NCBI RefSeq assembly: GCF_030819175.1
Contig: NZ_JAUTBJ010000002.1
Location: forward strand, 444,001-508,000
DNA from: Sphingomonas sp. SORGH_AS_0879
Lineage (GTDB): Bacteria > Pseudomonadota > Alphaproteobacteria > Sphingomonadales > Sphingomonadaceae
Reading direction: 5' to 3'
DNA length: 64,000 nucleotides
Shown: one piece after another, positions 48,865 through 64,000 of the stretch
Position numbering within the stretch: position 1 is the stretch's first letter
Layout of the letters: every line of letters begins with the position of its first letter
The notes under the pieces: generated by a model
Seen by the model: the letters and a program-made list of their open reading frames with translations, nothing else
Told to the model about the DNA's origin: nothing
Database searches by the model: none
Translations under genes and position numbers: made by a program

Positions 48865-49149
48865 ATGACCGATATCACCACCGCACCGATCGCCGATCAG
48901 ATCACCGCCCGCCTGACGGCGGCGCTGTCGCCCACTTTGCTCGAAGTCATCAACGAAAGCGCGATGCATCGCGGCCATCTGGGCGATGACGGCACGGGCG
49001 AGAGCCATTTCCGCGTCATCGTCGAATCGCCGCTTTTCGCCGGCCAGTCGCGCGTCGCCCGCCAGCGTCTGGTGAACCGCGCGCTCGCCGATCTGTTGTC
49101 CGAGCGTATCCATGCGCTGGCGATCAGCGCGAAGGCACCCGGAGAATAA
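48865..49149 (+). CDS. bolA: BolA-family protein
   Basis: The 94-residue protein contains the BolA fold with the conserved ESHFRVIVESPLFAGQSRVARQRLVNRAL helix-strand region and invariant His. BolA proteins partner monothiol glutaredoxins in iron-sulfur trafficking and stress. The ATG at 48865 is chosen over longer frames that run antisense into the J-domain gene. A GST gene follows after 4 bp, forming a bolA-GST-NUDIX-pirin run. Confidence 0.9.
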   Translation: MTDITTAPIADQITARLTAALSPTLLEVINESAMHRGHLGDDGTGESHFRVIVESPLFAGQSRVARQRLVNRALADLLSERIHALAISAKAPGE

Positions 49150-49153
49150 GCGA

Positions 49154-49846: not shown

Positions 49847-50304
49847 TTCGCCAGCCCCGTCCCGCCGCGCGCATCCTGCTGGTCGATGCGGTCGGACGGA
49901 CGCTGATGTTCCGTTTCACCCCCGATGATCGCCCGCCCTTTTGGTGCACGCCCGGCGGCGCGGTCGATCCCGGCGAGACTTACGAGGACGCCGCCCGTCG
50001 CGAATTGCTGGAGGAAACCGGGCTCGACCGCGATTGCGGGCCGCAGGTCGCAAGGCGTCAGGTCGAGTTCCGCACCATCGAGGGTGTCGAGGTCGAGGCG
50101 GACGAGCGCTACTTCCGCGTCGACATCGATGCGCATGAGGTGACGGGCGCGGGCCACACCGCGCTCGAACAGCGGGTCATGCAGAGCTGGCGCTGGTTCT
50201 CCCGCGCCGAACTGGCGGCACATGCCGAACCCTATTTCCCGACCGACCTGATCGACTTGCTCGACGCGACGGAGCCGACCCCTACGGAGCAAAGATATGT
50301 TTGA
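49843..50304 (+). CDS. NUDIX hydrolase
   Basis: The 153-residue protein carries a full Nudix box GGAVDPGETYEDAARREL-LEETGL (about 43-66). This family hydrolyses nucleoside diphosphates linked to another group; the exact substrate is not readable. Translation is coupled at both ends: the start overlaps the GST stop, and the last 8 bp overlap the pirin gene start. Confidence 0.93.
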   Translation: MIRQPRPAARILLVDAVGRTLMFRFTPDDRPPFWCTPGGAVDPGETYEDAARRELLEETGLDRDCGPQVARRQVEFRTIEGVEVEADERYFRVDIDAHEVTGAGHTALEQRVMQSWRWFSRAELAAHAEPYFPTDLIDLLDATEPTPTEQRYV

Positions 50305-51196
50305 CGATTTCCTGCTGCGCACCCTGCAACCCTCGACGCATGATCTGGGCGGGTTCAAGGTGCACCGCACGCTCCCCAACAAGGAGCGGACGATGGTCGG
50401 CCCCTTCCTGTTCTTCGACCAGATGGGCCCGGCGCAACTGCTGCCCGGCTCCGGCATCGATGTGCGGCCGCATCCGCATATCAACCTGGCGACCGTCACC
50501 TATCTGTTCGACGGCGCGATCGGGCACCGCGATTCGCTGGGCACGAACCTGGTGATCGAGCCGGGTGCGGTGAACCTGATGACGGCGGGCCACGGCATCG
50601 TCCATTCCGAACGCTCGCCGAGCGAGGCCCGGCCGCAGGGGCCGAAGCTTTCGGGCATCCAGACCTGGCTGGCGCTTCCGGAAGCGCAGGAGGAAATGGA
50701 CCCGGCGTTCGAGCATGTCCCCGCCGGTGCACTGCCCAAGATCGAGGGGCAGGGCGCGACCGCACGGATCATCATGGGCTCGCTATGGGGCGAGCGGGCG
50801 CCGACCACGACCTATGCGGGCACCATCTATGCCGACATCGCGCTGGAGCCGGGCGGGAGCATACCGATCGATGCGAGCGCGGAGGAGCGCGCGGTCTATT
50901 GCGCGCTGGGCGAGGCGAGCCTGGAGGGCATGACGCTGGAGCCGCAGCGGCTCTACATCCTGAAGCCCGGGATCGCGGCGACGCTGCGGTCGGAAGGCGG
51001 CGGGCGGGTGATGCTGTGCGGCGGCGATGCCTTCACCACGCCCCGGCATGTCTGGTGGAATTTCGTCTCCTCCCGCCGCGAGCGGATCGAGGAGGCCAAG
51101 CGGGCGTGGAAGGCGCGGGAATTTCCGACCGTGCCGGGCGATGACCTGGAGCGGATCGAGATACCGGAGGTGCCGAAGACGGTGAGTTATCCGTGA
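50297..51196 (+). CDS. Pirin-family protein 1
   Basis: The 299-residue bicupin has the pirin metal motif VRPHPHINLATVTYLFDGAIGHRDSLG and GHGIVHSERSP in the N-terminal cupin, and a Pirin_C domain with FVSSRRERIEEAKRAWK near the end. Pirins bind Fe and some oxidise quercetin or act as redox-sensing coregulators. It starts inside the NUDIX stop region (8-bp overlap) and is the last gene in the bolA unit. A repeat-rich spacer follows. A second, shorter pirin lies at 52.3 kb. Confidence 0.93.
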   Translation: MFDDFLLRTLQPSTHDLGGFKVHRTLPNKERTMVGPFLFFDQMGPAQLLPGSGIDVRPHPHINLATVTYLFDGAIGHRDSLGTNLVIEPGAVNLMTAGHGIVHSERSPSEARPQGPKLSGIQTWLALPEAQEEMDPAFEHVPAGALPKIEGQGATARIIMGSLWGERAPTTTYAGTIYADIALEPGGSIPIDASAEERAVYCALGEASLEGMTLEPQRLYILKPGIAATLRSEGGGRVMLCGGDAFTTPRHVWWNFVSSRRERIEEAKRAWKAREFPTVPGDDLERIEIPEVPKTVSYP

Positions 51197-51207
51197 GGAT
51201 GTTCAAG

Positions 51208-51310
51208 CCCCTCTCCCGGTAGGGGTGGTGAGGGGCAAGGGCCGCGAGTGCTGGTCCCGGTGAAATCCTTTGCCCTCCCCCGGCCCCTCGCGCTTGCGGG
51301 AGGGGAGAGT
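51208..51310. repeat. GC-rich inverted repeat of CCCTCTCCC type
   Basis: CCCCTCTCCCGGTAGGGG... at the left and ...CGCGCTTGCGGGAGGGGAGAG at the right can fold into a long interrupted stem just after the pirin stop. It may act as a terminator, but it has no T-run. Confidence 0.6.
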
Positions 51311-51333
51311 GTGTGGAGAGGTTTCAGCGTGGC

Positions 51334-51412
51334 CTTCGACTTCGCTCAGGCTGAACGGAGGTTGGAATACCGGCCTGATTCCCCGCCCCGTTCAGGCTGA
51401 GCGAAGTCGAAG
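51334..51412. repeat. REP-like inverted repeat, copy 5
   Basis: Arms at 51334-51358 and 51388-51412 with a 29-bp loop are nearly perfect complements over 25 bp and have the same core as the other copies. Confidence 0.85.
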
Positions 51413-51540
51413 GCCATGGGAAAAGGCACCCCCCAGTCTCGATCCGCGATACAGGTCCCGCAAATGGTCGAGCCCAAACCTCCGTATGGTTTCGCGGTGC
51501 CGTCAAAGCGCCGAAAAGAGGCCATCGGAAGGAGCGCGCG

Positions 51541-52209
51541 ATGCCATTCAGTTCTTGCAGCCAGGATGCGGGTCAGCGGACCGGTGCCGTCATTCCTTTC
51601 GGGGCGCTCGACGCGGGCGGCGCGCAGGAGGCCAATCATCGGATCGCGAACAGCCTGCAACTGGTTTCGGCGATGTTGTCCTCGCAGGTCCGCGAACTGG
51701 CGGACCCGATCGCCCGGGATGCGTTGGACCGCTCGGTGCAGCGGGTCGCGGCGATCGCCGGTGTCCATCGCCAACTCTATCTTTCGCAGGAACGCGATCG
51801 GGTCGACATTGCCGGCTACCTCGTCGATCTGGTGGAGGGCCTGCGGCGCAGCTTCTCGGCGGACGCCCGCCATCGCCGCATCGACCTGGAGGTCGAGCCC
51901 GCGGTCGTGCCCGCCAGCTTCGCGGCGATCATCGGCGTCGTCGTGACCGAATTGGTCATCAATGCCTGCAAGCACGCCTACCATCCCGACCAGCCCGGCG
52001 GGATCGAGGTGATCGTGACCACGGGGCCGGAGCGCATCTTCTCGCTCCTCGTCCGCGACCATGGCCATGGCAGGCCAGCGGATGCGCGATCCGACGGGCT
52101 GGGGGATCGTCTGCTCGAACTGATGGCCCGGCGGCTCAAGGCGCGGGGCGGCTATTCGGAGGGTCGCGCGGGAACGACCTATATGATGACCGGCCTCATC
52201 CCGGCGTGA
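51541..52209 (+). CDS. HWE/HisKA_2-type sensor histidine kinase, short
   Basis: The 222-residue soluble kinase has an HisKA_2-type phospho-acceptor helix (EANHRIANSLQLVSAML, His near residue 34) and a C-terminal HATPase domain (VTELVINACKHAYHPDQPGG, then RDHGHG). It has no membrane helix and no sensory domain, so input must come from a partner or from its ~28 N-terminal residues. No response regulator is next to it. In alphaproteobacteria such kinases often feed the general stress response (PhyR/EcfG); that link is inference. Confidence 0.85.
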   Translation: MPFSSCSQDAGQRTGAVIPFGALDAGGAQEANHRIANSLQLVSAMLSSQVRELADPIARDALDRSVQRVAAIAGVHRQLYLSQERDRVDIAGYLVDLVEGLRRSFSADARHRRIDLEVEPAVVPASFAAIIGVVVTELVINACKHAYHPDQPGGIEVIVTTGPERIFSLLVRDHGHGRPADARSDGLGDRLLELMARRLKARGGYSEGRAGTTYMMTGLIPA

Positions 52210-52254
52210 CCTTGTCCGCCGCCGGGCCGCCCGACGCCCTCGCATTCCATGGCA

Positions 52255-52288
52255 AGGGGAGGCCGGGCGGCGATGCCCGACCTCCCCT
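52255..52288. terminator. Shared hairpin between convergent genes
   Basis: AGGGGAGG-CCGGGC pairs with GCCCG-ACCTCCCCT around a short loop, between the kinase (ends 52209) and pirin 2 (ends 52314). It could stop both. Confidence 0.6.
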
Positions 52289-52313
52289 CTCTGCCTTTCG
52301 ACCCGGTTGCGGA

Positions 52314-53012
52314 TCAGGCGGCGTCGACCATGACGACTTCGCTGTCCTCGATCGCCGTCACGCGGATCACATCCTGATCCTTGATGGCGGCGCCGTCGCG
52401 TGCGTTGACGGCGATGCCGTCGATCTCGACCGCGCCGGTCGCGGGGACGAGATAGGCGCGACGATCCTTGCCGATCGGATATTCGACGGTTTCCCCGGCC
52501 TTCAGCGTGGCGCCGACCACCCGCGCATCGGTGCGGATCGGCAGCGCGTCCGTGTCGTCGTCGAAGCCCGAGGCGAGGATGACGAACTGTCCGGCGCGTT
52601 CGCCCTTGGGGAAGGGACGGGCGCCCCAGCTCGGCTTTTCGCCGGTGCGGGTGGGCTGGATCCAGATCTGGAAGATCTTCGTCGTGACGTCTTCCTTGTT
52701 ATACTCGGCATGGGCGATGCCGGTGCCCGCGCTCATCACCTGGACGTCGCCCGCTTCCGTGCGGCCCGAATTGCCCAGATTGTCCTGATGGGTGATCGCC
52801 CCCTCGCGGACATAGGTGATGATTTCCATGTCGCGGTGCGGGTGGGGCGGAAAGCCGGACTGCGGCGCGATGGTGTCGTCGTTCCACACGCGCAGATTGC
52901 CCCAGCTCGTGCGGGCGGGATCATAATAGTTGGCGAACGAGAAATGATGCTTGGCGTCGAGCCAGCCGTGGTTGGCACCGCCGAGGCTGCTGAAGGGGCG
53001 AAGTTCGATCAT
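52314..53012 (-). CDS. Pirin-family protein 2 (YhaK/YhhW-like)
   Basis: The 232-residue protein is of the quercetinase-like pirin group: MIELRPFSSLGGANHGWLDAKHHFSFANYYDP, the metal site PPHPHRDMEIITYVREGAITHQDNLG and GTGIAHAEYN, and a C-terminal cupin typical of YhhW/YhaK. Possible roles are flavonoid dioxygenase or redox-sensing protein. ATG 53012 is chosen by family start. It diverges from the LysR-TMEM175 gene with 112 bp between starts, the usual placement of a LysR target. Confidence 0.92.
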   Translation of the reverse strand: MIELRPFSSLGGANHGWLDAKHHFSFANYYDPARTSWGNLRVWNDDTIAPQSGFPPHPHRDMEIITYVREGAITHQDNLGNSGRTEAGDVQVMSAGTGIAHAEYNKEDVTTKIFQIWIQPTRTGEKPSWGARPFPKGERAGQFVILASGFDDDTDALPIRTDARVVGATLKAGETVEYPIGKDRRAYLVPATGAVEIDGIAVNARDGAAIKDQDVIRVTAIEDSEVVMVDAA

Positions 53013-53124
53013 GGCGTTTCTCCGGGGCCGTGCGCTGGATCGTCGGCCGATGACGAGGATGTAGGCGGGCAGGATCGTCCCGATCAGCCGGATAAATTCG
53101 CTCGCTCTTTTCGAGGAAATTGAA

Positions 53125-54645
53125 ATGAGCGAACCGGGCACCCCGACATTCGACCAGCTCCGCATCTTCCTGACGGTGGTGGACACCGGCAGCTTCGCGG
53201 CGGCGGGCCGCAAGCTGAACCGCGCGGTGTCGGTCATCAGCTACGGCATCACCAATTTGGAGGCGCAACTCGGCGTCACGCTGTTCGATCGCGAGGGGAC
53301 GCGGAAGCCCCGGCTGACCGAGGCGGGCCAGGCCGTCCTGGCCGAGGCGCGCATGGTCGCGGGTGGGATCGACGGGCTGAAGGCCAAGGTGAAGGGGCTG
53401 CTCGACGGGCTCGAAGCCGAGGTGAATCTGGCGGTGGACGTCATGCTGCCCGCGCGACGGCTGGGCGAGGTGCTCCGCGCTTTCGCCGCCCGCTTCCCCA
53501 CGGTGACGTTGCGGCTGCATGTCGAGGCACTGGGGGCGGTCGCGGCGCTGGTGCTGGAGGGAAGGGCGGTGGTCGGCCTGTCCGGTCCGCTCGCCAGCGG
53601 GTTCGACGGACTGGAATCCCTGGCGGCGGGAAGCGTCGAGATGGTGCCCGTCGCGGCGCCCGACCATCCGCTCGCGCGATATGACCGCATCCCGCCGGGG
53701 GCCGGGCGCGAGCATGTCCAGCTGGTCCTGACCGACCGGTCGCCCTTGACCGAAGGGCGCGATTTCGCCGTGCTGTCGCCGCGCACATGGCGGCTGGCGG
53801 ACCTGGGCGCCAAGCACCAGTTGCTCCGCGAGGGTATCGGCTGGGGCAACATGCCGCTGCCGTTGATCGCCCCCGATCTGGTCGCGGGCACGCTGAAGCG
53901 GCTGGCGATGCCGGACGATCCCGGCGGCATGTACCGCTTCTGCGGCATCTGGCGCCGCGACACCCCGCCCGGGCCCGCCGCATCCTGGCTGATCGCCGGC
54001 ATATGGTCGAACTCGGCCATGGCGATGGCGATCCGGCGGGTCGGGGCGATGTCTGACCGGCGGGGCGGGATGAGGCCGACGCGGCTGGAGGCGTTCACCG
54101 ACGGCGTCGTCGCGATCATCATCACCATCATGGTCCTGGAACTGAAGGTGCCGACAGGCGGCGATCTCCGCGACCTGGAGGGCATCGCGCCCCTTCTGCT
54201 CGCCTATGTCCTCAGCTTCATCAATGTCGGTCTCTACTGGAACAACCATCATCACATGCTGCACGCGACCGACCGGATCGACGGACGGGTGCTGTGGGCC
54301 AATCTGTTCCTGCTGTTCTGGCTCAGCCTCGTGCCGTTCGTGATACGCTGGCTCGACGACAGCGGCTTCGCGGAGGGGGCCACGGCCGCCTATGGAATCG
54401 TGCTCGGCATGTCCTCGGTCGGGTATCAGCTGACCGAACGGGCGATCATCGCCTGCAACGGACCGGGATCGGCGGTCGCCCGGGCGATCCGTCGCGACGG
54501 GAAGGGATGGGGGAGCATCGCGGTCTATGCCGCGGCCGTGCCGCTCGCCTATGCCAGCCGATGGGTGGCGATCGCCCTGTATGTCGGGGTGGTCGCCCTG
54601 TGGTTCGTCCCGGATCGACGGATCGCCCGAATCCTGGAAGGCTGA
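53125..54645 (+). CDS. LysR-type regulator fused to TMEM175-like channel domain
   Basis: This is one uninterrupted 506-codon frame. Residues 1-60 are a LysR winged helix (FDQLRIFLTVVDTGSFAAAGRKLNRAVSVISYGI). Residues 90-305 are a LysR substrate-binding domain. Residues 316-506 are a full DUF1211/TMEM175 membrane domain (MRPTRLEAFTDGVVAIIITIMVLELKVP, NHHHMLHATDRIDGRVLWANL, WLSLVPFVIRWL) with about six hydrophobic segments. These are normally separate proteins: a regulator and a K+ channel-like protein. An internal ATG at 54070 after GGGGCGGG could also start the channel alone. A lost stop codon or a true membrane-tethered regulator are both possible. Confidence 0.85.
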   Translation: MSEPGTPTFDQLRIFLTVVDTGSFAAAGRKLNRAVSVISYGITNLEAQLGVTLFDREGTRKPRLTEAGQAVLAEARMVAGGIDGLKAKVKGLLDGLEAEVNLAVDVMLPARRLGEVLRAFAARFPTVTLRLHVEALGAVAALVLEGRAVVGLSGPLASGFDGLESLAAGSVEMVPVAAPDHPLARYDRIPPGAGREHVQLVLTDRSPLTEGRDFAVLSPRTWRLADLGAKHQLLREGIGWGNMPLPLIAPDLVAGTLKRLAMPDDPGGMYRFCGIWRRDTPPGPAASWLIAGIWSNSAMAMAIRRVGAMSDRRGGMRPTRLEAFTDGVVAIIITIMVLELKVPTGGDLRDLEGIAPLLLAYVLSFINVGLYWNNHHHMLHATDRIDGRVLWANLFLLFWLSLVPFVIRWLDDSGFAEGATAAYGIVLGMSSVGYQLTERAIIACNGPGSAVARAIRRDGKGWGSIAVYAAAVPLAYASRWVAIALYVGVVALWFVPDRRIARILEG

Positions 54646-54673
54646 GCGGCCACCGCTTCGACGGAAAATCGTG

Positions 54674-55849
54674 TCATTCGACCTGCGGCAGCGCGAAGCG
54701 GAATATCGATCCCGCGCTCGCCTTCGAGACATGCTCCAGCGTGCCGCCATGATCCTCCACGATCTGGCGCGAGATACGCAGGCCCAGGCCGAGGCCGGTC
54801 GCCCTGGTCGAATGAAAGCCCTCGAACAGATGCTCCTGGTCGGATGCGGAGATGCCCGGTCCGCTGTCTTCGACCTCGACGACGATCATGCCGCCGTCCC
54901 GCCGACCCCGGACCTTGAGCGCGCGGCTCCAGCAGCGGGCCTCCGCCATGGCCTGTGCGGCGTTCATCATCAGGTTGATCAGCACCTGTCGCAGCTGAAC
55001 GCCGTCCGCCCATACGGAACCCAGGTCGACGGGCAGGTCGAGCGACAGTGTCGCCTGGCGGCTGGCGAATTCCTGTTGCAGGAAGTCGACCGTCTCCTCG
55101 ATCAGGGGCCGGACCGCGCAGCGCGTGCGTTCCTCCCGCTTGTTGGCTGCCATCGCGCGAAGCCGGGCGACCGTCTCCTCCGCCTTGCCCGCGCCGAGCA
55201 CGATCGTGTCGAGACAGTCCTCGACCTGGCGGAGATCGACCTGGGGCTGGCGCAGCCATCGCAGCGCCGCCTGTGCCGATGTCATCATCGCGCTCAGCGG
55301 TTGCCGCACCTCATGCGCGATCGTCGCCGACATGATGCCCAGCGTCGACAGCCGGTCGGCATGGGCCATCCGGGCGCGCAGATGGACCGCATCCTTTTCC
55401 GCCAGCACCTGATCGCTCACATCCACCAGGCCGAAGGTCAGCGCGCCGGGCGGGGCGTCCTCCTCGCGCCAGCTGCTGAAGCGGACATGCAGGGTCGCGC
55501 CGGGGGCCTTGAGAGCAAGCCGTGCCCGGAAACAGGCCTGCGGCTCGGCCGACGCCGCGATGGCCTGGACCAGATGATCCGCCTCGGCAAAGGGCCAGAC
55601 TGCGCCGACCGGAACCGGCAGGTCGCTCTCCGCGAGGCCGAGCATCGTCCCCGCGCGGCAATTCACCGCCACCAGACGGGTTTCCCCGAACAGCCGCCGC
55701 AACAGGTCATGCCGCTTGGCCGTGGTCAGGCCCCGCTCCGCCAGCGCGGTGGCGAGCGCCCCGGCGGCGGTGGCATCGAGCCGCCCGAGCGCGAGGCCCA
55801 TGGCGTCGACCATGCGGCTCGATGCCGTCAGGGGAAGGCGCGGCGGCAT
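54674..55849 (-). CDS. Soluble PAS-type sensor histidine kinase
   Basis: The 391-residue kinase has an N-terminal helical region (about 1-65), a PAS-like sensor (about 65-170) and a HisKA domain with the phospho-acceptor in SATIAHEVRQPLSAMMT. The HATPase_c domain shows NLMMNAAQAM, EDSGPGI and GLGLGLRIS. No membrane helix is seen. ATG 55849 follows GAGGGG; the alpha/beta hydrolase gene ends 7 bp upstream, so it is the last gene of the long minus-strand run. No response regulator is adjacent. Confidence 0.9.
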   Translation of the reverse strand: MPPRLPLTASSRMVDAMGLALGRLDATAAGALATALAERGLTTAKRHDLLRRLFGETRLVAVNCRAGTMLGLAESDLPVPVGAVWPFAEADHLVQAIAASAEPQACFRARLALKAPGATLHVRFSSWREEDAPPGALTFGLVDVSDQVLAEKDAVHLRARMAHADRLSTLGIMSATIAHEVRQPLSAMMTSAQAALRWLRQPQVDLRQVEDCLDTIVLGAGKAEETVARLRAMAANKREERTRCAVRPLIEETVDFLQQEFASRQATLSLDLPVDLGSVWADGVQLRQVLINLMMNAAQAMAEARCWSRALKVRGRRDGGMIVVEVEDSGPGISASDQEHLFEGFHSTRATGLGLGLRISRQIVEDHGGTLEHVSKASAGSIFRFALPQVE

Positions 55850-55856
55850 GGTCCCC

Positions 55857-56678
55857 TCAGTCGGCGATAAACTGCAACAGGTCCTGGTTGAGCCGGTCCT
55901 TGTGCGTGAAGAGCACGCCGTGGGGAGCGCCCTCATAGACCTTGAGGGTCGCATTCGGGAACAGCTCGGCGGCCTGGCGTGCGGTCGCGTCGAAGGGAAC
56001 GAAGGCGTCCTGTTCGCCGTGGATGACCAGCACCGGCACGTCGAAGCCCGCGATGTCGTCGCGATAGTCGGTCGTGGCGCATGCCGTCACCGCATCGTGC
56101 GCGGCCTTGAGCGACCCCTGCAAGGCCATATGGTGGACATGGGCGAGCCTGCCCTCCGAAACCTCGCTGTTCGGATCGTTCGTCGCGAAGAACAGGCGTG
56201 CGAAGCCGCGAAGAAACTCGGCGCGGTCCTCCAGCAAGCCGCTGCGGACATTGTCGAAGACGATCTGCGGCACCCCGCACGGATAATCCTCGCTCTGGCC
56301 CAGCTTGGGGGTGGTCGCGCCGATCAGGACGACGCGCGCCACGCGGGCCGATCCGTGCCGCCCGACATAGCGGGTGACCTCGCCCCCGCCCATGGCATAG
56401 CCGACCAGGGTGACGCGACGCAGATCGAGGTGATCGAGCAGTTCGGCCAGATCGTCGGCGAAGCTGTCGTGATCGTAACCGTCCCAGGGCTGATCCGAGC
56501 GGCCGAAGCCGCGACGGTCGTGCGCGACCACGCGATACCCGTGCGAGGCGAGGAACATCATCTGGTTTTCCCACATGTCCGCGTTCAACGGCCAGCCATG
56601 GGCGAAGACCACCGGATCGCCCGTGCCCCAGTCCTTGTAATAGAGCCGGGTTCCATCCCCAAGGGTCAGCATCGGCAT
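55857..56678 (-). CDS. Alpha/beta hydrolase (chloroperoxidase-like), nucleophile Ser replaced by Ala
   Basis: The 273-residue alpha/beta hydrolase belongs to the cofactor-free haloperoxidase/esterase group: VVFAHGWPLNADMWENQM, DRRGFGRSDQPWDGYD, the nucleophile elbow, HGEQDAFVPFD (acid) and GAPHGVLFTH (histidine). The elbow normally reads GFSMGGGE; here it is GYAMGGGE, with Ala95 (codon GCC at 56396-56394) where the catalytic Ser should be. The rest of the triad is intact. It may be inactive, a binding protein, or use another chemistry. ATG 56678 follows a GGGAGAAAT ribosome site. Confidence 0.9.
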   Translation of the reverse strand: MPMLTLGDGTRLYYKDWGTGDPVVFAHGWPLNADMWENQMMFLASHGYRVVAHDRRGFGRSDQPWDGYDHDSFADDLAELLDHLDLRRVTLVGYAMGGGEVTRYVGRHGSARVARVVLIGATTPKLGQSEDYPCGVPQIVFDNVRSGLLEDRAEFLRGFARLFFATNDPNSEVSEGRLAHVHHMALQGSLKAAHDAVTACATTDYRDDIAGFDVPVLVIHGEQDAFVPFDATARQAAELFPNATLKVYEGAPHGVLFTHKDRLNQDLLQFIAD

Positions 56679-56772
56679 GATATTTCTCCCGTCCCGCACC
56701 CCGAAACTAGCCTGGGCGGGGGATCGGGGCTTCCCCCGATCGGGTGCGTCCTGGCCCACACGAAAGGGTGGA

Positions 56773-57480
56773 TCAGCCCCCGGCGGGCTGGCGCGCGGAC
56801 GGGTGGCGTGTGCAGGCCAGCGTGCCGCCGAATATGGTCGCACCGGCCAGCGCGAGCGGGGCCGCCAGCCCGAAGCTCCGCATCAGGACTGCTCCGAGCA
56901 ACGCCCCGAGGAAGATCGCGAAGACCGCGCCGAGGCGCCGGGACCAGTTCGGGTTGGTGCCGCCGGCCGCCGCCGAGTCCGCCGCGATGCCGGTGATCGT
57001 CAGGGTCAGCACGGTGGTCGTCAGGTCGGGCACCTTGAGCTGGCGGATGGTGGCGTTGCGATAGCCCATCGCGATTGCGGTCAGCGCGATGATCGCAAAG
57101 ACGCGGAGGCGATCGGGCGCGGAGATGTCGAACCCGACCGCGATCAGCGCCGCCGCCCAGAGCAGCCCCGCTTCGATCAGCGCCGACCGGATCAGCCAGC
57201 CGCCGAGCGGCTTTCCGACCTGGCGGCGCGCCATCCGGCCCGCGAGGAGCGCGCCGAGCATGAAGGTGAGGATCGCCGCGACATAGACCGGCCAGTGAAA
57301 GCCGGGCGTCCCCGCCGCGGCAAAGCCCAGGAACACGATATTTCCGGTCATGTTGGCGGTGAACACCTTGCCCAGGCCCAGCACGCTCGCGGCATCGACC
57401 AGCCCGGTCGTCGCCGACAGGAGCAGCAGCAATTTGGGGAGTGGGGAGGGGGAGGTCGCGGGCGCGGCGGCTGGTGCCAT
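56773..57480 (-). CDS. YoaK-family (DUF1275) membrane protein
   Basis: The 235-residue protein has about six hydrophobic segments and the family signature LGKVFTANMTGNIVFLG near residue 40, then LRVFAIIALTAIAMGYRNATIRQLKVPDLTTTVLTLTITG. It is likely an inner-membrane transporter or permease-like protein of unknown substrate. It lies 10 bp after the porin gene, and 94 bp separate it from the next gene, the largest gap inside the run. Confidence 0.9.
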   Translation of the reverse strand: MAPAAAPATSPSPLPKLLLLLSATTGLVDAASVLGLGKVFTANMTGNIVFLGFAAAGTPGFHWPVYVAAILTFMLGALLAGRMARRQVGKPLGGWLIRSALIEAGLLWAAALIAVGFDISAPDRLRVFAIIALTAIAMGYRNATIRQLKVPDLTTTVLTLTITGIAADSAAAGGTNPNWSRRLGAVFAIFLGALLGAVLMRSFGLAAPLALAGATIFGGTLACTRHPSARQPAGG

Positions 57481-57490
57481 GATAGTCTCC

Positions 57491-58882
57491 TCAGAATCGG
57501 AAATTCGCCTCCAGCCCCAGCATCACGATCGTGTGGGCCGGGCCGGTCTGCTTGATGAAGTCGCCAGGTGCGAAGGCCGACAGCGACCCGGACAGGTTGA
57601 GTTCCGGCGTCGCCTGCCAGTCGATCGCCGCTTCCGCCTCCGCACCGATGAACCGGGCGGTCGCCGATCCTGCGGGGCGGATGAGGTTGCCGGGGATGTC
57701 GTAAAGGCCATCGGCCTTGGCGAAGCGCCAATAGGCCATCGTCGCGACGCTGCCCGAGACGTTGCCGCCGAACGACGCGGTGACCCGCGGGTTCACCGAG
57801 ATGATGTTGTAGGGGCCGACCGGCGACAATTCGCCGAAATATTTGCCCTTGGGGAACAGTGCGTTGAACGTGCCCAGATGCCTGTCGTCGGGATTGCGAT
57901 CCCCGCTGGCGATATTCATGCGCAGGGTCGCGTCGGGCATCCATCGTAGCTGATCGAACCGGTGCCCGCCCTCGACCGCGACGGTCCAGGCGGAGATCGG
58001 TCGGTCCGCGAAGCGCCCGAACTGGTACACGCCCTCGGCATTCCAGTGCCAGCCGTCCCGCTTGCCGGACAAGCGCGCGCCGAGGCTGTGGCGCAACTCG
58101 CGCCCTTCCGTCCCGCCGAACCGCGCCGCGCGGTTGCGATAGCCGAGATAATAGAGGTCGATCCCGCCGCGGGACGCATAAGCCCCCCAAAGCGACTTGG
58201 TGCGCGAGCGTCGGTCGTCGAACGTGCCCATGCCCGGCTGTACGGGCTGGACCGCGATCAGGCTGACCGTCGCGCTGCCCAGCGAGGCGAGCGCGCGGAA
58301 ACCGTCGAACGCCAGCGGCACATTGGGGCCGTATCGCGTGCCGACCAGGCGTTCGGTGCCGAGCGCGATCATCTGGCGCCCGGCGCGAAGCGTCATGCCA
58401 TATCCTTCGCGATCGCCGGTCATGGCGTCGCCGAGACGCACGTCCGCGAAGCCCTGGAGCAGATCGACCCGCGTCTGGTCGATCGGCCCGGCCTGTGGCG
58501 CGACGCCGATGGCATAGGCGGCGATCGGCTGGACGAAGGCGCGCACGCGACCCATGTGCAGATCGGCATGGGGGACGAGCCGCACCCATTGATAGCCGTC
58601 ATTCGGAGCGGCGGCGCCACCCCAGAGATTGTCACGATAGCTTTCGTTGCGGACGCGCAGTTCGACGCCGGTCGTCGCATAGGCATCTTCGGCAAGCGGG
58701 ATGTATTTGAACGCCTCGGTCCAGCGACCGGTGCGGTCGGCGGGATCGGCGAGATGCGACCAGTCCTCGTCATAGCGGGTCGTGGTCAGGGTCGGGGGCT
58801 GCCATGCCTCCAGCGTCTGCGCGGCGACGGGGGCCGCAAGGCCCATCGCCAGCGCCGAAGCCGCGAGCGTGAAGCTACGCAC
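57491..58882 (-). CDS. Alginate-export-type outer-membrane porin
   Basis: The 463-residue protein has a signal peptide (1-21, APVAAQ) and a beta-barrel pattern with many alternating strands (ATTGVELRVRNESYRDNLWGG, RAGRQMIALGTERLVGTRYGPN). It belongs to the Alginate_exp (AlgE-like) domain family and ends with the C-terminal phenylalanine NFRF. In non-alginate producers such proteins are generic outer-membrane channels. Its start overlaps the DoxX stop by 8 bp. Confidence 0.87.
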   Translation of the reverse strand: MRSFTLAASALAMGLAAPVAAQTLEAWQPPTLTTTRYDEDWSHLADPADRTGRWTEAFKYIPLAEDAYATTGVELRVRNESYRDNLWGGAAAPNDGYQWVRLVPHADLHMGRVRAFVQPIAAYAIGVAPQAGPIDQTRVDLLQGFADVRLGDAMTGDREGYGMTLRAGRQMIALGTERLVGTRYGPNVPLAFDGFRALASLGSATVSLIAVQPVQPGMGTFDDRRSRTKSLWGAYASRGGIDLYYLGYRNRAARFGGTEGRELRHSLGARLSGKRDGWHWNAEGVYQFGRFADRPISAWTVAVEGGHRFDQLRWMPDATLRMNIASGDRNPDDRHLGTFNALFPKGKYFGELSPVGPYNIISVNPRVTASFGGNVSGSVATMAYWRFAKADGLYDIPGNLIRPAGSATARFIGAEAEAAIDWQATPELNLSGSLSAFAPGDFIKQTGPAHTIVMLGLEANFRF

Positions 58883-59312
58883 GACGCCGTTCGCGTTCGG
58901 CGACCAGCGCCGCCAGGACGAAGCCGCCGATCAGGCCGAGATGCTCGAAAAAGGCGTTGGTGGCCATGAAGCGGTCCTGCCCGGCAGGCATGGTCCAGAA
59001 GGCGTTGGCGGTGAAGGCGGCGAGCAATGTGAACACGCCAAGCATACCCGCGCCGAGCCAGATCAGGCGGCCCGACAGGATCAGCAGCGGTCCGACGATC
59101 TCGACGGCGATCGTGAGCGCGGCCCAAAGCTGCGGCGCGTTCATCCCGAAATGGGCCTGTTCGGCCACCGCTGCGGGCCAGTCGCTCGCCTTGACGACGC
59201 CGCCCAGCAGATAGGCGCCGACCAATAGCAGGCGCGCGAGGAACCAGGTTGGGCGCCATTCGAGCACGGCGTCGACGAAGCGCGGTTCGCCGGAGGGGCG
59301 GCCGGGCGTCAC
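58875..59312 (-). CDS. DoxX-family membrane protein
   Basis: The 145-residue protein has four hydrophobic segments (LARLLLVGAYLLGGVVKASDW; LWAALTIAVEIVGPLLILSG; LIWLGAGMLGVFTLLAAFTANAFW; LGLIGGFVLAALVAER), as in DoxX/DoxD-type quinone or thiol-redox-associated proteins. It overlaps the VOC gene stop (ATGA at 59309-59312) and the porin start, so all three are tightly coupled. Confidence 0.88.
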   Translation of the reverse strand: MTPGRPSGEPRFVDAVLEWRPTWFLARLLLVGAYLLGGVVKASDWPAAVAEQAHFGMNAPQLWAALTIAVEIVGPLLILSGRLIWLGAGMLGVFTLLAAFTANAFWTMPAGQDRFMATNAFFEHLGLIGGFVLAALVAERERRRA

Positions 59313-60205
59313 TTCCCGCTGCCCGCATGCACCTCGGCGATATAGCCGCCGGGGAATTGCAGCATGACGGCGCGGCGATCGCCGACGGTATAGGGCGGGA
59401 CGATGACCTTCACATCGGCGGCCACCGCGCGGGCCAGCGTGGCGTCGAAGTCCGCAACCTCATAGCCGGTCAGCTCGCGCCCGTAAGGCCAGGTCAGCGC
59501 GCCATCGGTGACCAGCAGCGTGGTTCGGCCATAACCGGATGTCAGCCGGATGCGGCGATAGGGCTTGCCCGGCTGGCCGATCTCCTCGCCGGGGGCCGCG
59601 CGATCGTCGGACAGGATGCTGGCGTGGGCAAAGCGGGTCCAGCTGCGGACATAGGCATCCGCCGTGTCGGCGGTCAGGTAGACGCGGCTCTCCGGCACGC
59701 TGGCGGGCGCGGGGTAATCGGGCGTCTTGGTGTGCCAGTAGAGTTGCATCACGCTGCCGCCCGGCCATTGGACCAGCGTGTCGCGGCCGATCGGGTCGGG
59801 GAAGGTGTCGACCACCCGGACCGCCCCGGCGGCGCGCGCGGCGGCGACGGCACCGTCCATGTCCTTGACGAGATAGCCGACGCGCTCCTCGCCGAAGGGA
59901 TAGGGGATCGGCGTCACGAAGCCGAAGACCGAGACGCTGCCGACCGGCGTGATGACGACTTGCGACCGCGTCCGGCTGGGGGTCGGCGTCACTTGGAAAA
60001 TGCCGCCCGGATTGGGCTTGCCGCCAAAGGTGGCGACGAAGCTCTGGATGAACCGGTCGAAGTCGGCGACCGGCACATAGACATGGGTCGTGTCATATTG
60101 CGGACCGACCGAATAGTCCGCGCTCGCAGGCTGGCGGGCGGCGACCGGCACGGCGGGCGTCGCACCGAACAGCGCGACGGCGAGCAGGAGGATCGTGCGC
60201 TTCAT
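59309..60205 (-). CDS. Exported VOC (glyoxalase-fold) protein
   Basis: The 298-residue protein has a signal peptide (about 1-24, AVPVAAR) and two VOC/glyoxalase-like modules: the first from about 40 (DTTHVYVPVADFDRFIQSFV) with RVGYLVKDMDGAVAAARAAG, the second from about 170 (RVYLTADTADAYVRSWTRF) with GYEVADFDATLARAVAADVKVIVPP. Such proteins bind metal or small electrophiles; periplasmic export is unusual for glyoxalases. ATG 60205 follows AGGGAGA, with the amidohydrolase stop 14 bp upstream. Confidence 0.85.
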   Translation of the reverse strand: MKRTILLLAVALFGATPAVPVAARQPASADYSVGPQYDTTHVYVPVADFDRFIQSFVATFGGKPNPGGIFQVTPTPSRTRSQVVITPVGSVSVFGFVTPIPYPFGEERVGYLVKDMDGAVAAARAAGAVRVVDTFPDPIGRDTLVQWPGGSVMQLYWHTKTPDYPAPASVPESRVYLTADTADAYVRSWTRFAHASILSDDRAAPGEEIGQPGKPYRRIRLTSGYGRTTLLVTDGALTWPYGRELTGYEVADFDATLARAVAADVKVIVPPYTVGDRRAVMLQFPGGYIAEVHAGSGK

Positions 60206-60219
60206 CGTCTTGTTCTCCC

Positions 60220-62151
60220 TCATACCGCCCAGCAGCCGCAGCCGAGCGAACCCCAGAAGCTCTGCACGTCCGCCGCCGGCACGTTCGCGCCCAGGGCGGC
60301 GGCATGGTCGTGGCCGTGGACGGAGCAGGCGCTGGCGCAACCACAGGCACTGGCGAGTTTCGCGCTCGCCTCGGGCGCGCGGTGATAGCCGCCGAACGTC
60401 GCGACCGGCGACCAGTCGGGCATCGGGCGCGGCAGGGCGGGCGCGAGCGTCGCGAAGTCGCCGTCGCCGTGCACGACCTGGCCGCCCAGCAGCGTCAGGA
60501 CGGAGCGGATGTGTGGAATGGCGCTTTCCGGCACCGCGAAATAATCGTCGGACAGCACCGCCAGATCGGCGAGTTGCCCCGCCTTGATCTGCCCCTTCTT
60601 GCCGACCTCGTTGGAGAACCAGGTGTTCTCGTGCGTCCACATCCGAAGCGCCTTTTCGCGGCTGACGCGATTGGCGCCGGGGTAGAGTGAGAGGCCGCCG
60701 ACGGTCTTTCCCGTCACCAGCCAGTTCAGCGACACCCAGGGATTATAGCTGGCGACCCGCGTCGCATCGGTGCCCGCGCCGACCGGAATGCCCGCCGCGA
60801 GCATCCGGGCGATCGGCGGCGTCCGCTCGGCGGCCCTGGCGCCATAGCGTTCGACGAAATATTCGCCCTGATAGGCCATGCGATGCTGCACCGCGATGCC
60901 GCCGCCCAGGGCGGCGATCCGGTCGATATTGCGGTCGCTGATCGTCTCGGCATGGTCGAAGAACCAGTTGATGCCGGTCAGCGGAATGTCGCGATGGACC
61001 TTTTCATAGACGTCGAGCGCGCGGCCGATCGTCTGGTCATAGGTCGCGTGAAGCCGCCAGGGCCAGCGATGCTCCGCCAGCAGACGGATCACGGGTTCGA
61101 GGTCGCCCTCCATGCCGGGCGGCATGTCCGGTCGCTCGACGCGGAAATCCTCGAAATCGGCAGCGGAGTAGACCAGCATCTCGCCCGCGCCATTGTGGCG
61201 ATAGCTGTCGTCGCCCTGGCCGGGCTTCACCTGTTTCACCCAGCCCTGAAAGTCGGCCAGCTCCTCCTTCGGCTTCTGCGTGAACAGATTGTAGCTGATG
61301 CGCAGCGTGAGCTGGCCGTCGGCGTGGAGCTGTTCGATGATCCGATAGTCGTCGGGATAATTCTGAAAGCCGCCGCCCGCGTCGATCACCCCGGTCACGC
61401 CCAGCCCGTTCATCTCCCGCATGAAGTGGCGGGTCGAGTTGATCTGATAGTCGGGCGGCAGCTTGGGCCCCTTGGCGAGAGTCGAATAGAGGATGGTCGC
61501 GTTCGGCCGGGCCAGCAGCAGGCCGGTCGGGTTGCCGCGCGCATCGCGCACGATCTCGCCGCCGGGCGGGTTCGGCGTGTCCCTTGTATAGCCGACCACG
61601 CGAAGCGCCGCGGCGTTCAGCAGCGCGCGGTCATAGAGGTGGAGGATGAAGACTGGCGTGTCGGGCGCCACGGCGTTCAGCTCGGCGATGGTCGGCAGGC
61701 GCTTTTCGGCGAACTGATGCTCGGTAAAGCCGCCGACGACGCGAACCCATTGCGGCGCGGGCGTGTTGTCCACCTGTCGCTTCAGCATCGCCATGGCGTC
61801 GGCCAGCGTCGCCACGCCGTCCCAGCGCAGCTCCATATTATAGTTCAGCCCGCCACGGATGATGTGCATATGGCTGTCGATCAGCCCCGGAATCACCCGG
61901 CGTCCGCCTACGTCGATGACGGTGGCGTCGGCCTTGGCTGCCGCGCGGGCCTCGCTCTCGCTGCCGACCGCCAGGAAGCGGCCGTCACGGATGGTGATCG
62001 CCTCGGCCTGCGGGTTCTCGCGATCGAGCGTCGCGACGCGGGCGTTGAGGATCAGCAGGTCGGTCATGGGCGGATTCCTGTTGGCGGCGATCAGCGGAAG
62101 CATGGCGGTGGCGGCACCGCCCAGGACGACGGCGCGCCGGGTGGCGGTCAT
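60220..62151 (-). CDS. Amidohydrolase (YtcJ-like) with Cys/His-rich C-terminal tail
   Basis: The 643-residue amidohydrolase superfamily (TIM-barrel) enzyme has metal ligands in IDSHMHI (about 92-98), further histidines in RLHATYDQT and FFDHAE, and the Asp in GAGTDATRV. The N-terminus TRRAVVLGGAATAM suggests Tat export; this start is supported because its ATG overlaps the XapX stop (ATGA). The last ~45 residues add a Cys/His-rich tail (ACGCASACSVHGHDH ... GCGCW) that may bind an extra metal. Exact substrate unknown; amides, ureas or lactams are typical. Confidence 0.88.
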   Translation of the reverse strand: MTATRRAVVLGGAATAMLPLIAANRNPPMTDLLILNARVATLDRENPQAEAITIRDGRFLAVGSESEARAAAKADATVIDVGGRRVIPGLIDSHMHIIRGGLNYNMELRWDGVATLADAMAMLKRQVDNTPAPQWVRVVGGFTEHQFAEKRLPTIAELNAVAPDTPVFILHLYDRALLNAAALRVVGYTRDTPNPPGGEIVRDARGNPTGLLLARPNATILYSTLAKGPKLPPDYQINSTRHFMREMNGLGVTGVIDAGGGFQNYPDDYRIIEQLHADGQLTLRISYNLFTQKPKEELADFQGWVKQVKPGQGDDSYRHNGAGEMLVYSAADFEDFRVERPDMPPGMEGDLEPVIRLLAEHRWPWRLHATYDQTIGRALDVYEKVHRDIPLTGINWFFDHAETISDRNIDRIAALGGGIAVQHRMAYQGEYFVERYGARAAERTPPIARMLAAGIPVGAGTDATRVASYNPWVSLNWLVTGKTVGGLSLYPGANRVSREKALRMWTHENTWFSNEVGKKGQIKAGQLADLAVLSDDYFAVPESAIPHIRSVLTLLGGQVVHGDGDFATLAPALPRPMPDWSPVATFGGYHRAPEASAKLASACGCASACSVHGHDHAAALGANVPAADVQSFWGSLGCGCWAV

Positions 62152-62405
62152 GCCGCGCGCTCGGCGGCTTCGTTGTTGGAGGGCAGTCGGCCCAGCACAT
62201 GCTCGGAGCAGGAGGTGCGGATCGTCGCGGCCTCCTGTCGGCTCGCGAACAGGCTCTTGGCGAGCGGTACGACCTGTTCGCCGACCAATATGCCCAGCAG
62301 CCCCACCAGCGCGATCGCCGGTGGAGCGGGCGACCGTACCTTGAGCAGTCCGTAGATGACGCCGACAAGCACGCCCGCCGCGATCGAGATCAGGTACGGC
62401 CGCAT
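62148..62405 (-). CDS. XapX-domain membrane protein
   Basis: The 85-residue protein has two hydrophobic helices (LISIAAGVLVGVIYGLLK; AIALVGLLGILVGEQVVPLAK) with the PxPxAxALVGLLGILxGE signature of XapX (DUF1427). It then carries a soluble tail with one Cys. XapX proteins often sit beside YcaC hydrolases and amidohydrolases, as here. Its stop overlaps the amidohydrolase start, and it starts 3 bp after the YcaC gene. Confidence 0.9.
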   Translation of the reverse strand: MRPYLISIAAGVLVGVIYGLLKVRSPAPPAIALVGLLGILVGEQVVPLAKSLFASRQEAATIRTSCSEHVLGRLPSNNEAAERAA

Positions 62406-62408
62406 GGC

Positions 62409-63068
62409 TCAGTGACCGCCTTCGGAGGCGCCGAACATCGTCCTGGCATAGGTGATGCCCAGGCCGTAGCCGCCGCCGAACTTCTTCGCGACCCCGGTGG
62501 TGGCGTCATAGGTTTCGGTCCGCGCCCAGTCGCGCTGCAACTCCAGCAGATATTGAAGCGCGGTCATCGGCTTGGCACCGAGCTGGATCATCCGCTGGCA
62601 GGCGCGCTCATGCGCCTCCTCCGAAATGTCGCCGCAGGCGTCCGAGATGAAATAGCAGTCGAAGCCCTGGTCGATCGCCGACGCGACCGGCCCGACGATG
62701 CAGACGCTGGTCCACAGACCGGCGAAGACGATCCGCTCCTTGCCGATGCGGTTGACCTCCCCGATCACGGCGGCGTCCTCCCAGGTGTTCATCGAGGTGC
62801 GGTCGAACATCGCCTGGCCGGGGAAGGGCGCGGTGACCTCGTCGAACATCGGGCCGGAAAAGCTCTTCTCGGCGACGGTCGTCAGGATCGTGGACACGCC
62901 GAATGCGGCTGCCGCATGGCTGACGAGCGCGGCGTTGTTGCGGAGCAGTTCGGGCGCGATCGACTTGGTCGCAAAGGACATTTGCGACTGGAAGTCGATC
63001 AGGACGAGCATGTGGTCGGTGGGGGTGATGAGCGACTTGCCCGGGGTCGGCGTGGCGGTGATCGGCAT
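62409..63068 (-). CDS. YcaC-type isochorismatase-fold hydrolase
   Basis: The 219-residue hydrolase has the full catalytic set: Asp in MLVLIDFQSQM, Lys in TTVAEKSFSG and the nucleophile Cys in AGLWTSVCIVGPV. The C-terminal part has ISEEAHERACQRMIQLGAKPMT, typical of the YcaC group. Substrate unknown. It contrasts with the Cys-less relative at 8.3 kb. ATG 63068 follows AGGAAA. It appears to be the first gene of the tight run down to the sensor kinase. Confidence 0.92.
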   Translation of the reverse strand: MPITATPTPGKSLITPTDHMLVLIDFQSQMSFATKSIAPELLRNNAALVSHAAAAFGVSTILTTVAEKSFSGPMFDEVTAPFPGQAMFDRTSMNTWEDAAVIGEVNRIGKERIVFAGLWTSVCIVGPVASAIDQGFDCYFISDACGDISEEAHERACQRMIQLGAKPMTALQYLLELQRDWARTETYDATTGVAKKFGGGYGLGITYARTMFGASEGGH

Positions 63069-63222
63069 GGCTCGATTTCCTTTCTTCGGCTGCGCGCATC
63101 CGGCCCGGACCCCGGTCCGGGGCAGGGTTCGGATCTGCGGTGTTCGGATGTCTTGTGGTGGCGCGTCGGTCGGCGGTCTTGGACGATCGTGACGCGAAGA
63201 GGACGCGGCGAACGCGCCGCGA

Positions 63223-63537
63223 TCAGAGGGACAACAGGCCGAGCGCGTCGATCTGCGCCTGCGAGAAGCCATGGGTCGCCAGCGGCGGCGCAAGGTCATC
63301 GGCGGCCCGGCGCCGGCGGCGGCTCGCGCATACGAACCGGCGGACCGCCTCCAACCGGGGATCGGCGAGCGATGTGGGGCGGTTCTGGCCGAAGACCAGC
63401 GCCGCCGCCCGGCCGAGGATGCCCGCCGGTGCATCCCGGGACTGCTCGGCGCAACCGCAGCGCTCGGCGTCCTGAAGGGCGATGGAGACGGCGGCCCATT
63501 CGTGGCGGGACAGCGTGGGTTCGGCGGTGGCGGACAT
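63223..63537 (-). CDS. Small conserved-type hypothetical protein
   Basis: The 104-residue soluble protein has helical segments (SRHEWAAVSIALQDAERCGCAEQS; ADPRLEAVRRFVCASRRRRRAAD; GFSQAQIDALGLLSL) and a CGC plus a later Cys. I do not recognise a characterised family. ATG 63537 follows GGGAGC; the 57-residue upstream extension looks spurious. It lies 154 bp upstream of the YcaC gene on the same strand and may be its first co-transcribed member. Confidence 0.7.
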   Translation of the reverse strand: MSATAEPTLSRHEWAAVSIALQDAERCGCAEQSRDAPAGILGRAAALVFGQNRPTSLADPRLEAVRRFVCASRRRRRAADDLAPPLATHGFSQAQIDALGLLSL

Positions 63538-63758
63538 GGACAGGCTCCCGTTATGGCAACCCGATCGTGCGCGCCCCGGTCCCGAAGCGGCAGCCGTAAA
63601 AGTCCGATCCATTTGTTCGACCGAATGGAAAAGCGGCGGCTTCCGGGGCCCCCACGCACAGCGAGAGCCGCCCGGCCCGTTCGTGCAAGTGGCGCATCGG
63701 ATATGCAATCGCCGGTCCGGTCATCCGGGGCACCACGCTCCCACGAAGGGAGACGAAC

Positions 63759-63872
63759 ATGGCACCGGAACCGGATCAGGACGATGAGGATGGGCGCGAG
63801 GAACGGCTCGACGAGGCGATCGAGGAGAGTTTCCCGGCCAGCGATCCGCCCGCGACCGGCGACTTCGCCTGA
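63759..63872 (+). CDS. 37-residue acidic protein
   Basis: A short frame has a good ribosome site (AAGGGAGA) and an ATG at 63759. The product is very acidic (PEPDQDDEDGREERLDEAIEE) and ends in SFPASDPPATGDF, a C-terminal pattern (EESFPASDPP) that recurs in many small proteobacterial proteins. Function unknown. Confidence 0.7.
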   Translation: MAPEPDQDDEDGREERLDEAIEESFPASDPPATGDFA

Positions 63873-63976
63873 CAGGGGCCAGCCGACGTGCGGATCGTGC
63901 CAATTGCAACGCGCTTCTACAATCGCCGGGCGATCGAACGGGGCAGGGTGCGGGAAACCGAAAAGGGAAACCCGCC

Positions 63977-64000
63977 ATGCTTCATCATCAGGATCGATCC
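63977..64000 (+). CDS. Possible gene start, cut by window edge
   Basis: An ATG at 63977 after AAAAGGGAAAC opens eight codons (MLHHQDRS) before the window ends. The ribosome site is reasonable, but too little sequence remains to identify it. Confidence 0.35.

Follow-up and report, generated by a model that had tools for sequence, protein, structure and literature searches.

In the RsbQ-RsbP system of Bacillus, a hydrolase gene lies directly upstream of the gene for a PAS protein and the two products make contact via the PAS domain; the published account (Nadezhdin et al. 2011, PMC3183031) lists 45 RsbQ-PAS pairs, with histidine kinase outputs in Gram-negative bacteria. According to that account, the Ser-Asp-His triad of RsbQ is required, RsbQ differs from arylesterases and haloperoxidases by its cavity and a loop, and RsbP-PAS domains are without DIT. 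We have analysed a 64,000-nucleotide stretch of Sphingomonas sp. SORGH_AS_0879 (contig NZ_JAUTBJ010000002.1, positions 444,001 to 508,000; the whole stretch is hereafter called the window), in which a run of ten minus-strand genes ends with an alpha/beta hydrolase that has lost its catalytic serine and a soluble histidine kinase. The run is made of two modules: Module A (ycaC, xapX, amidohydrolase, VOC, DoxX, porin and yoaK) and Module B (the alpha/beta hydrolase and the kinase). By analogy, Module B appears to work like an RsbQ-PAS module, without being a member of that group.

Results

Module B is laid out like an RsbQ-PAS module

Module B consists of two genes:

54674..55849, minus strand: soluble histidine kinase with predicted N-terminal PAS domain and coiled coil (HATPase_c and HisKA; structure model; profile match to 4gcz)
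55857..56678, minus strand: nucleophile-less alpha/beta hydrolase with a GYAMGG elbow, Asp and His kept (Pfam, alignment, tree)

As in RsbQ-PAS modules, the hydrolase gene lies directly upstream of the kinase gene, with a gap of 7 base pairs (bp) in the window, and the two genes are adjacent in 5/5 genomes that carry the kinase. The domain order may also be alike, with a predicted N-terminal PAS domain, a coiled coil and an output domain. In contrast to RsbQ, the triad serine is absent throughout the clade of the window hydrolase, and this hydrolase is nearest to arylesterases and haloperoxidases. The end of the predicted kinase PAS domain reads DVSD and is thus DIT-like, unlike RsbP-PAS domains. 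Of 64 matches of the hydrolase to solved structures, the best 60 include none named RsbQ. Membership of the RsbQ-PAS group was rejected because the triad serine is lacking and the hydrolase, by these matches, falls outside the RsbQ family.

The hydrolase lost its serine and was remodelled

The nucleophile elbow of the window hydrolase reads GYAMGG, with Ala in place of Ser, so that the nucleophilic serine of the arylesterase/haloperoxidase elbow is absent. The closest solved structures are arylesterases and haloperoxidases (3hi4, E 6.8e-103). With the arylesterase/non-haem chloroperoxidase family (3hi4, 3hea, 1va4, 1a8s) the protein shares the fold, the length, the Asp and His residues and the HGWP and GGG motifs; it is at best 59-61% identical to the serine-bearing relatives and differs from the 3hi4 family in lacking the nucleophile Ser94.

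The serine-less hydrolase had already been recognised in the sequence-only reading, an earlier model-made note on this DNA, and it proved to be real. Among the best 120 of 6502 homologous proteins, the 27 closest (70-89% identity) all read GYAMGG, whereas the next 93 (54-61% identity) all keep Ser. The Ala group, whose named organisms include Sphingomonas, Rhizobium and Neorhizobium, is set apart by a branch with support 100/99 in a tree built without the fragment P0027. Six pairwise comparisons of serine-less hydrolases gave ratios of nonsynonymous to synonymous substitution rates (dN/dS) of 0.07-0.12, showing at the sequence level that the gene which lost its serine is under purifying selection. 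Random loss or a pseudogene is excluded by this ratio together with the clade-wide conservation.

Ten positions are fixed differently between the Ala and Ser groups. The pocket-side changes fixed with the loss of Ser are at positions 94, 95, 122, 200, 205 and 226; in 3hi4 numbering, Ser94 is changed to Ala, Phe93 to Tyr, Val121 to Thr, Phe198 to Cys, Phe203 to Tyr and Ile224 to Phe. We take Val121, Phe198 and Ile224 of 3hi4 to line the esterase pocket. Asp224 and His253 (Asp222 and His251 in 3hi4) are kept in the serine-less clade, as are the Trp and Met on the oxyanion side. This pattern points to remodelling of the pocket and not to decay.

When rhizobial loci of the clade were sought, it was found in one of 385 genomes of the class, namely the genome of the window itself, and in none of 151 genomes in the family of genome G703. 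The 99 plasmid records of relatives were all less than 60% identical.

Further relatives of the alpha/beta hydrolases are encoded on the right flank of the locus in its own genome (locus L205, 7977-17217): three genes, two with GHSTGG and GFSMGG elbows and one without a matching elbow pattern. The same flank holds a metallo-beta-lactamase-fold gene, a PAS-type kinase and response-regulator-like open reading frames (ORFs). An AhpD-like reading of another gene there (L205:12543-13106) was dropped, as it gave no Pfam match.

The kinase stays next to the serine-less hydrolase

The kinase belongs to a subfamily of 44 proteins at 47-97% identity, below which identity drops to 43% or less. At E<=1e-60 the kinase was found in 5 of 30 genomes, each time with the serine-less hydrolase directly before it: the window strain, G262 (where tblastn places hydrolase and kinase adjoining), G294, Sphingomonas sp. 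TDK1 and S. trueperi. In TDK1 the pair, 3 bp apart, sits on a 279-kb contig and Module A on another contig. In S. trueperi both genes are broken, side by side (L231, 6798-8255). Two more matches at E<=1e-60 among 137 family genomes (G012 and G046) are 37-39% identical, below the range of the subfamily. In the metagenomic and genomic protein sets, seven of the 14 closest hydrolases apparently co-occur with a protein of the kinase subfamily, as read by eye from longest contigs of equal size.

A PAS domain is predicted in the kinase. In the structure model, residues 20-143 adopt a PAS-like fold and residues 145-199 a long helix, after which comes the kinase core. Profile comparison matched the protein to PAS-FixL hybrids such as 4gcz over 55-389, and 4gcz was also ranked first by Foldseek for the model, at a low whole-chain TM-score of 0.38.

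The ten-gene run as two modules

All ten minus-strand genes of the run are present in the ORF list, and nine of them have the families named in the sequence-only reading; the tenth, a small Cys-containing ORF, has no Pfam match. Module A and this ORF comprise:

56773..57480, minus strand: YoaK/DUF1275 membrane protein (PF06912, 2.1e-35)
57491..58882, minus strand: outer-membrane porin of the alginate-export family (PF13372, 5.7e-65)
58875..59312, minus strand: DoxX membrane protein (PF07681, 4.3e-14)
59309..60205, minus strand: VOC-type protein, predicted exported (PF13669, 3e-5, below the Pfam cut-off; N-terminal hydrophobic stretch)
60220..62151, minus strand: Amidohydro_3 protein with a start like that of twin-arginine translocation (Tat) substrates and a conserved Cys/His tail (PF07969, 2.1e-130)
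62148..62405, minus strand: XapX (DUF1427) small membrane protein (PF07235, 5.5e-35; TIGR03510)
62409..63068, minus strand: YcaC-type cysteine hydrolase of the isochorismatase fold (PF00857, 5.4e-23; 1yac, 3.3e-29)
63223..63537, minus strand: small Cys-containing ORF, outside the operon (no Pfam match; conserved in four other loci)

The coordinates give junctions, in bp, of ycaC (+3) xapX (-4) amidohydrolase (+14) VOC (-4) DoxX (-8) porin (+10) yoaK (+94) hydrolase (+7) kinase. Close packing, as had been described for the whole run, therefore holds for the seven genes from ycaC to yoaK (-8 to +14 bp) and for the last pair; 94 bp separate the two groups, and the Cys ORF stops 154 bp ahead of ycaC. 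Since the hydrolase-kinase pair is found apart from Module A in TDK1, it is a separable module, and the reading of the ten genes as one unit is not supported. The Cys ORF has motifs EW-AV...CGC and RRFVC, which are kept in four other loci, and sites of the operator described below lie near it in relatives.

The six window proteins compared with PADLOC-DB gave no match to an anti-phage defence system, and no RNA element was matched in Rfam within 49000-64000 of the window.

Module A encodes an amidohydrolase with an invariant Cys/His tail

The amidohydrolase has a PF07969 domain with the HxH, two His, Asp pattern of Amidohydro_3: H94, H96, H368, H400 and D462 do not vary among 46 sequences that reach down to 58% identity. 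We assume that these residues are the metal ligands. The tail, which lies outside the Pfam domain, contributes C609, H612, H614, H616, C638 and C640, invariant in the same 46 sequences; both a terminal GC[G/S]CWAV and HGH[D/N]H are seen in 79 of the 81 relatives aligned. The tail called metal-rich in the sequence-only reading is thus a real, conserved Cys/His-rich feature, and it may form a metal site. Export through the Tat pathway, claimed in the same reading, is plausible, as a simple pattern (RR followed by a hydrophobic stretch) occurs in 71/97 loci, the window copy included, a few of the 71 being doubtful by eye. The VOC protein, predicted to be exported, has an N-terminal hydrophobic stretch; its match to the VOC family falls below the cut-off.

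The solved folds closest to the amidohydrolase are 3igh and 3icj, followed by triazine hydrolases and imidazolonepropionases. The YtcJ-like Amidohydro_3 proteins 3icj and 3igh, both uncharacterised, have the amidohydrolase fold and the metal-ligand pattern in common with it, at an identity of about 18-19% in the fold match; in contrast to them, it adds the Tat-like start, in many members, and the invariant tail.

XapX passes the TIGR03510 model with 68.4 bits against a cut-off of 27.8. The ycaC product has PF00857 with the catalytic Cys, and its SVC region is conserved in 45 aligned sequences. Like YcaC (1yac, 4wgf) it has the isochorismatase fold, and the Asp, Arg and Cys region is conserved in the ycaC set; unlike YcaC, it is a distinct subfamily within a fixed operon. 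In the YcaC study (PMC4519933), the substrate of YcaC is given as not known and its nucleophilic cysteine as reacting with electrophiles.

Module A is an old accessory gene set

Scanning species genomes with the amidohydrolase gave at least 592 candidate stretches, of which 585 encode relatives. In the best 80 loci (77-90% identical), a gene was counted as present if its best tblastn match lay on the same strand and no more than 6.5 kb away; ycaC was present in 78/80, xapX in 77/80, doxX in 65/80, porin in 56/80, yoaK in 43/80 and voc in 29/80. The ycaC, xapX and amidohydrolase genes occur together within 2.5 kb in 75 of the 80. Of 398 genomes of the phylum, 47 have the amidohydrolase at E<=1e-100, and all six other members of the genus in that set lack it at this threshold; XapX is found in 23 of 298 genomes of the family and in none of its five other genus members. 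Because the distribution is wide and patchy, Module A appears to be accessory and yet an old, conserved proteobacterial gene set. The sequence-only reading had named conservation beyond this strain as a check on its proposal, and such conservation is what we find. A literature search yielded no functional study of a ycaC-xapX-amidohydrolase operon.

The wider neighbourhood was sampled as 129 of 1516 predicted ORFs around the 80 loci, picked by length, distance and codon filters. The commonest neighbours were response regulators (20), major facilitator superfamily (MFS) transporters (19, 15 of them recognised by MFS_3 models) and ferritin/Dps proteins (6). In close relatives, OsmC, a thiamine-pyrophosphate (TPP) enzyme and an old-yellow-enzyme family protein are encoded near Module A.

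Many relatives have an alpha/beta hydrolase between ycaC and xapX; this protein reads GHSTGG and is 41-51% identical, and orthology with the serine-less hydrolase was rejected. Distant members carry, ahead of the amidohydrolase, a similar short ORF (VTLIIRH/VTLVISH...EFPGHLG; L219 8786-9340, L220 10313-10858, L224 7125-7709), which by eye resembles antibiotic-biosynthesis-monooxygenase proteins.

A LysR regulator and its candidate operator

Next to the run lie the pirin and lysR genes:

52314..53012, minus strand: pirin family protein (Pirin and Pirin_C_2; PF02678, 6e-36; PF17954, 2e-18)
53091..53124, minus strand: composite operator TTC-N9-GAA-N13-TTTATC in the pirin/lysR promoter (exact match; same arrangement in relatives)
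53125..54645, plus strand: lysR in one frame with TMEM175; the ancestral state is two overlapping genes, LysR of about 309 amino acids and then TMEM175 (Pfam, relatives)
about 63166..63193 (approximate boundaries), minus strand: lineage-specific motif CACG-A-TCGTCCAAGACC before ycaC, in place of the LysR operator (suggestive)

The run had been described as facing a divergent pirin/LysR pair. Pirin and lysR are divergent, and the kinase is convergent with lysR-TMEM175, with 28 bp between them; pirin itself is on the strand of the run. To the left of the cluster, on the plus strand, the window holds a second, two-domain pirin and a HisKA_2-type kinase (50297-51196 and 51541-52209); the second pirin is 27% identical to the cluster pirin over the core.

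A LysR-TMEM175 fusion was also claimed in the sequence-only reading, and the window does have a single open frame of 506 amino acids. However, the best 120 of 3298 homologues of this product all have LysR domains only, at 308-333 amino acids, lysR and TMEM175 are separate genes in the close relatives G262, G294 and G171, and in its other frame the window retains HMVELGHGDGDPAGRGDV-stop, which resembles the LysR ends of relatives. As relatives are unfused and the LysR end is legible in the other frame, we reject the fusion and regard the single frame, by sequence comparison, as due either to a recent change of frame or to a mistake in the assembly. A genuine one-strain fusion coupling the regulator to a membrane channel is very improbable.

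The sequence TTTATCCG, with one mismatch allowed, was present in 17/19 pirin/lysR intergenic regions and 23/57 ycaC upstream regions, compared with 3-4% in random windows and shuffles. Taken with an upstream TTC-N9-GAA it has a constant spacing, and the composite occurs 51 times in 2.13 Mb but only twice when the sequences are reversed; the pattern was first spotted by eye in the same loci and then counted there, in 103 sequences of which two (L045 and L212) are one genome region. Twenty-two sites lie before ycaC, 16 at pirin/lysR, 4 at the Cys gene or its divergent side, 2 before voc, 2 before yoaK and one each at sites tagged hydrolase, doxX and the divergent side of ycaC, leaving 2 unassigned. 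This is what a LysR-type operator common to a regulator promoter and its target operon would look like. Shared by the two promoters, this candidate operator links pirin/LysR to the ycaC operon in relatives.

In the window, the only exact match is that at pirin/lysR. Allowing one mismatch, the own genome has 11 sites against 4 in a backward control; two are exact, one of them at pirin/lysR. The link between LysR and the operon is thus supported for relatives and not for the window strain. Upstream of ycaC, the window has a CGTCCAAGACC-like motif common to G262, G294, G171 and L048, which by itself is only weakly above control, and a CGTCCAA(G/T)ACC motif replaces the LysR operator in ycaC promoters of the lineage (window 63166-63193; L045, L048, L206, L209, L212). 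A second promoter motif, TCGTCCAA, gave 15 matches against 6 in the control and is only suggestive.

Discussion

We propose a two-module explanation of the locus, to which as a whole we give a probability of about 0.5. Module A would be an accessory operon for one small molecule. The porin would let this compound into the periplasm, the Tat-exported metal amidohydrolase with its Cys/His tail would hydrolyse it there and YcaC would hydrolyse a further amide-type bond in the cytoplasm, an order that we reached by reasoning; DoxX, XapX and YoaK would serve in the inner membrane. Pirin and Module A would form the regulon of the neighbouring LysR. Module B would be a two-gene sensor. Its hydrolase, with the Asp-His pair kept and the pocket remodelled, would bind a ligand and, through protein-protein contact, switch the PAS domain of the cytosolic kinase, whose gene follows after 7 bp. 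The sequences themselves show the conserved gene set, the tail, the operator common to both promoters in relatives, the loss of the serine under purifying selection and the pairing of the two genes; we infer the substrates, the ligand, the physical contact of the two proteins, the direction of signalling and the idea that Module B would report on the compound of Module A.

Several observations weigh against this explanation. Pfam names no PAS domain in the kinase, and the kinase model has a predicted template-modelling score (pTM) of 0.46. None of 12 hydrolases of the rhizobial branch (P0015-P0026) co-occurs with a subfamily kinase by contig-size matching, so that pairing is seen in Sphingomonas only. 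By the same measure, the serine-type hydrolases P0054 and P0061 match the kinase-subfamily proteins P0153 and P0156, which may be chance or a counterexample. In Module A, the amidohydrolase tail is disordered in the model (predicted local distance difference test, pLDDT, <50 for 598-643), the 25 commonest neighbour families do not include OsmC, the TPP enzyme or old yellow enzyme, and the pattern search found no LysR operator before ycaC in the window strain.

For the hydrolase, a ligand receptor for the kinase is the most economical reading, and the main rival is an enzyme that needs no nucleophile, acting as a lyase or through an Asp-His general base as in cofactor-free dioxygenases of the alpha/beta hydrolase fold, with the kinase merely co-transcribed. 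Retention of Asp224 and His253 across the clade speaks for such an enzyme and also counts against a receptor; the kept oxyanion-side Trp and Met, the fixed pocket changes and the strong purifying selection suit it as well. However, the kinase stays adjacent when the pair sits elsewhere and both genes decay together, which suits a shared signalling role better, and no ring-cleavage or lyase partner gene adjoins the pair in TDK1. We consider the enzyme unlikely. In its strongest form, the receptor reading makes the hydrolase a genuine receptor for a small molecule, which it would bind without turning it over so as to gate the PAS kinase directly; the pair would be a portable sensor cassette that was added to a LysR/pirin amidohydrolase operon and took over its control. 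This form is tentative and on balance rather doubtful. Such a takeover would explain the missing LysR operator before ycaC in this lineage.

Uptake and breakdown of an amide or reactive compound, or a stress response to it, had been suggested in the sequence-only reading. Uptake or breakdown remains plausible in view of the porin, the apparently Tat-exported amidohydrolase, the cysteine hydrolase and the nearby OsmC, TPP and old-yellow-enzyme genes, although the latter are uncommon among the 129 neighbours. We weigh two readings of Module A as equal rivals, each possible at somewhat less than even odds. The first, in which Module A is no stress response but serves the catabolism of a single amide or heterocycle, fits the plausible order of uptake, periplasmic hydrolysis and cytosolic hydrolysis by the cysteine enzyme, the patchy distribution (as of XapX in the family) and an amidohydrolase whose predicted fold is nearest to 3igh/3icj and then to triazine hydrolases. 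The operon in the window, however, has no inner-membrane transporter beyond YoaK, XapX and DoxX, whose role in transport is not known, and no downstream pathway genes; MFS_3 genes near relatives also argue against it, as MFS_3 proteins are more often exporters. The second, defence against reactive electrophiles or oxidants, agrees with the OsmC, old-yellow-enzyme and TPP-enzyme genes of close relatives, with Dps-type ferritins in 6/129 neighbours and with the reactivity of the YcaC nucleophilic cysteine towards electrophiles described in PMC4519933. Yet those three families are rare in the wider sample, and the core enzymes have no known redox reaction.

RsbQ-type modules appear to depend on hydrolase chemistry for producing or unmasking a signal that is not known. 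A natural, conserved version that lacks the nucleophile and is still encoded beside a PAS kinase would allow ligand binding to be told apart from catalysis, making the receptor question directly testable; if the receptor reading is true, the window hydrolase would be a bacterial counterpart, in logic, of the hydrolase-fold hormone receptors. The widespread ycaC-xapX-amidohydrolase operon, with its fixed operator and strict Cys/His tail, may in turn help to find out what YcaC, XapX and the pirin-linked LysR regulators do.

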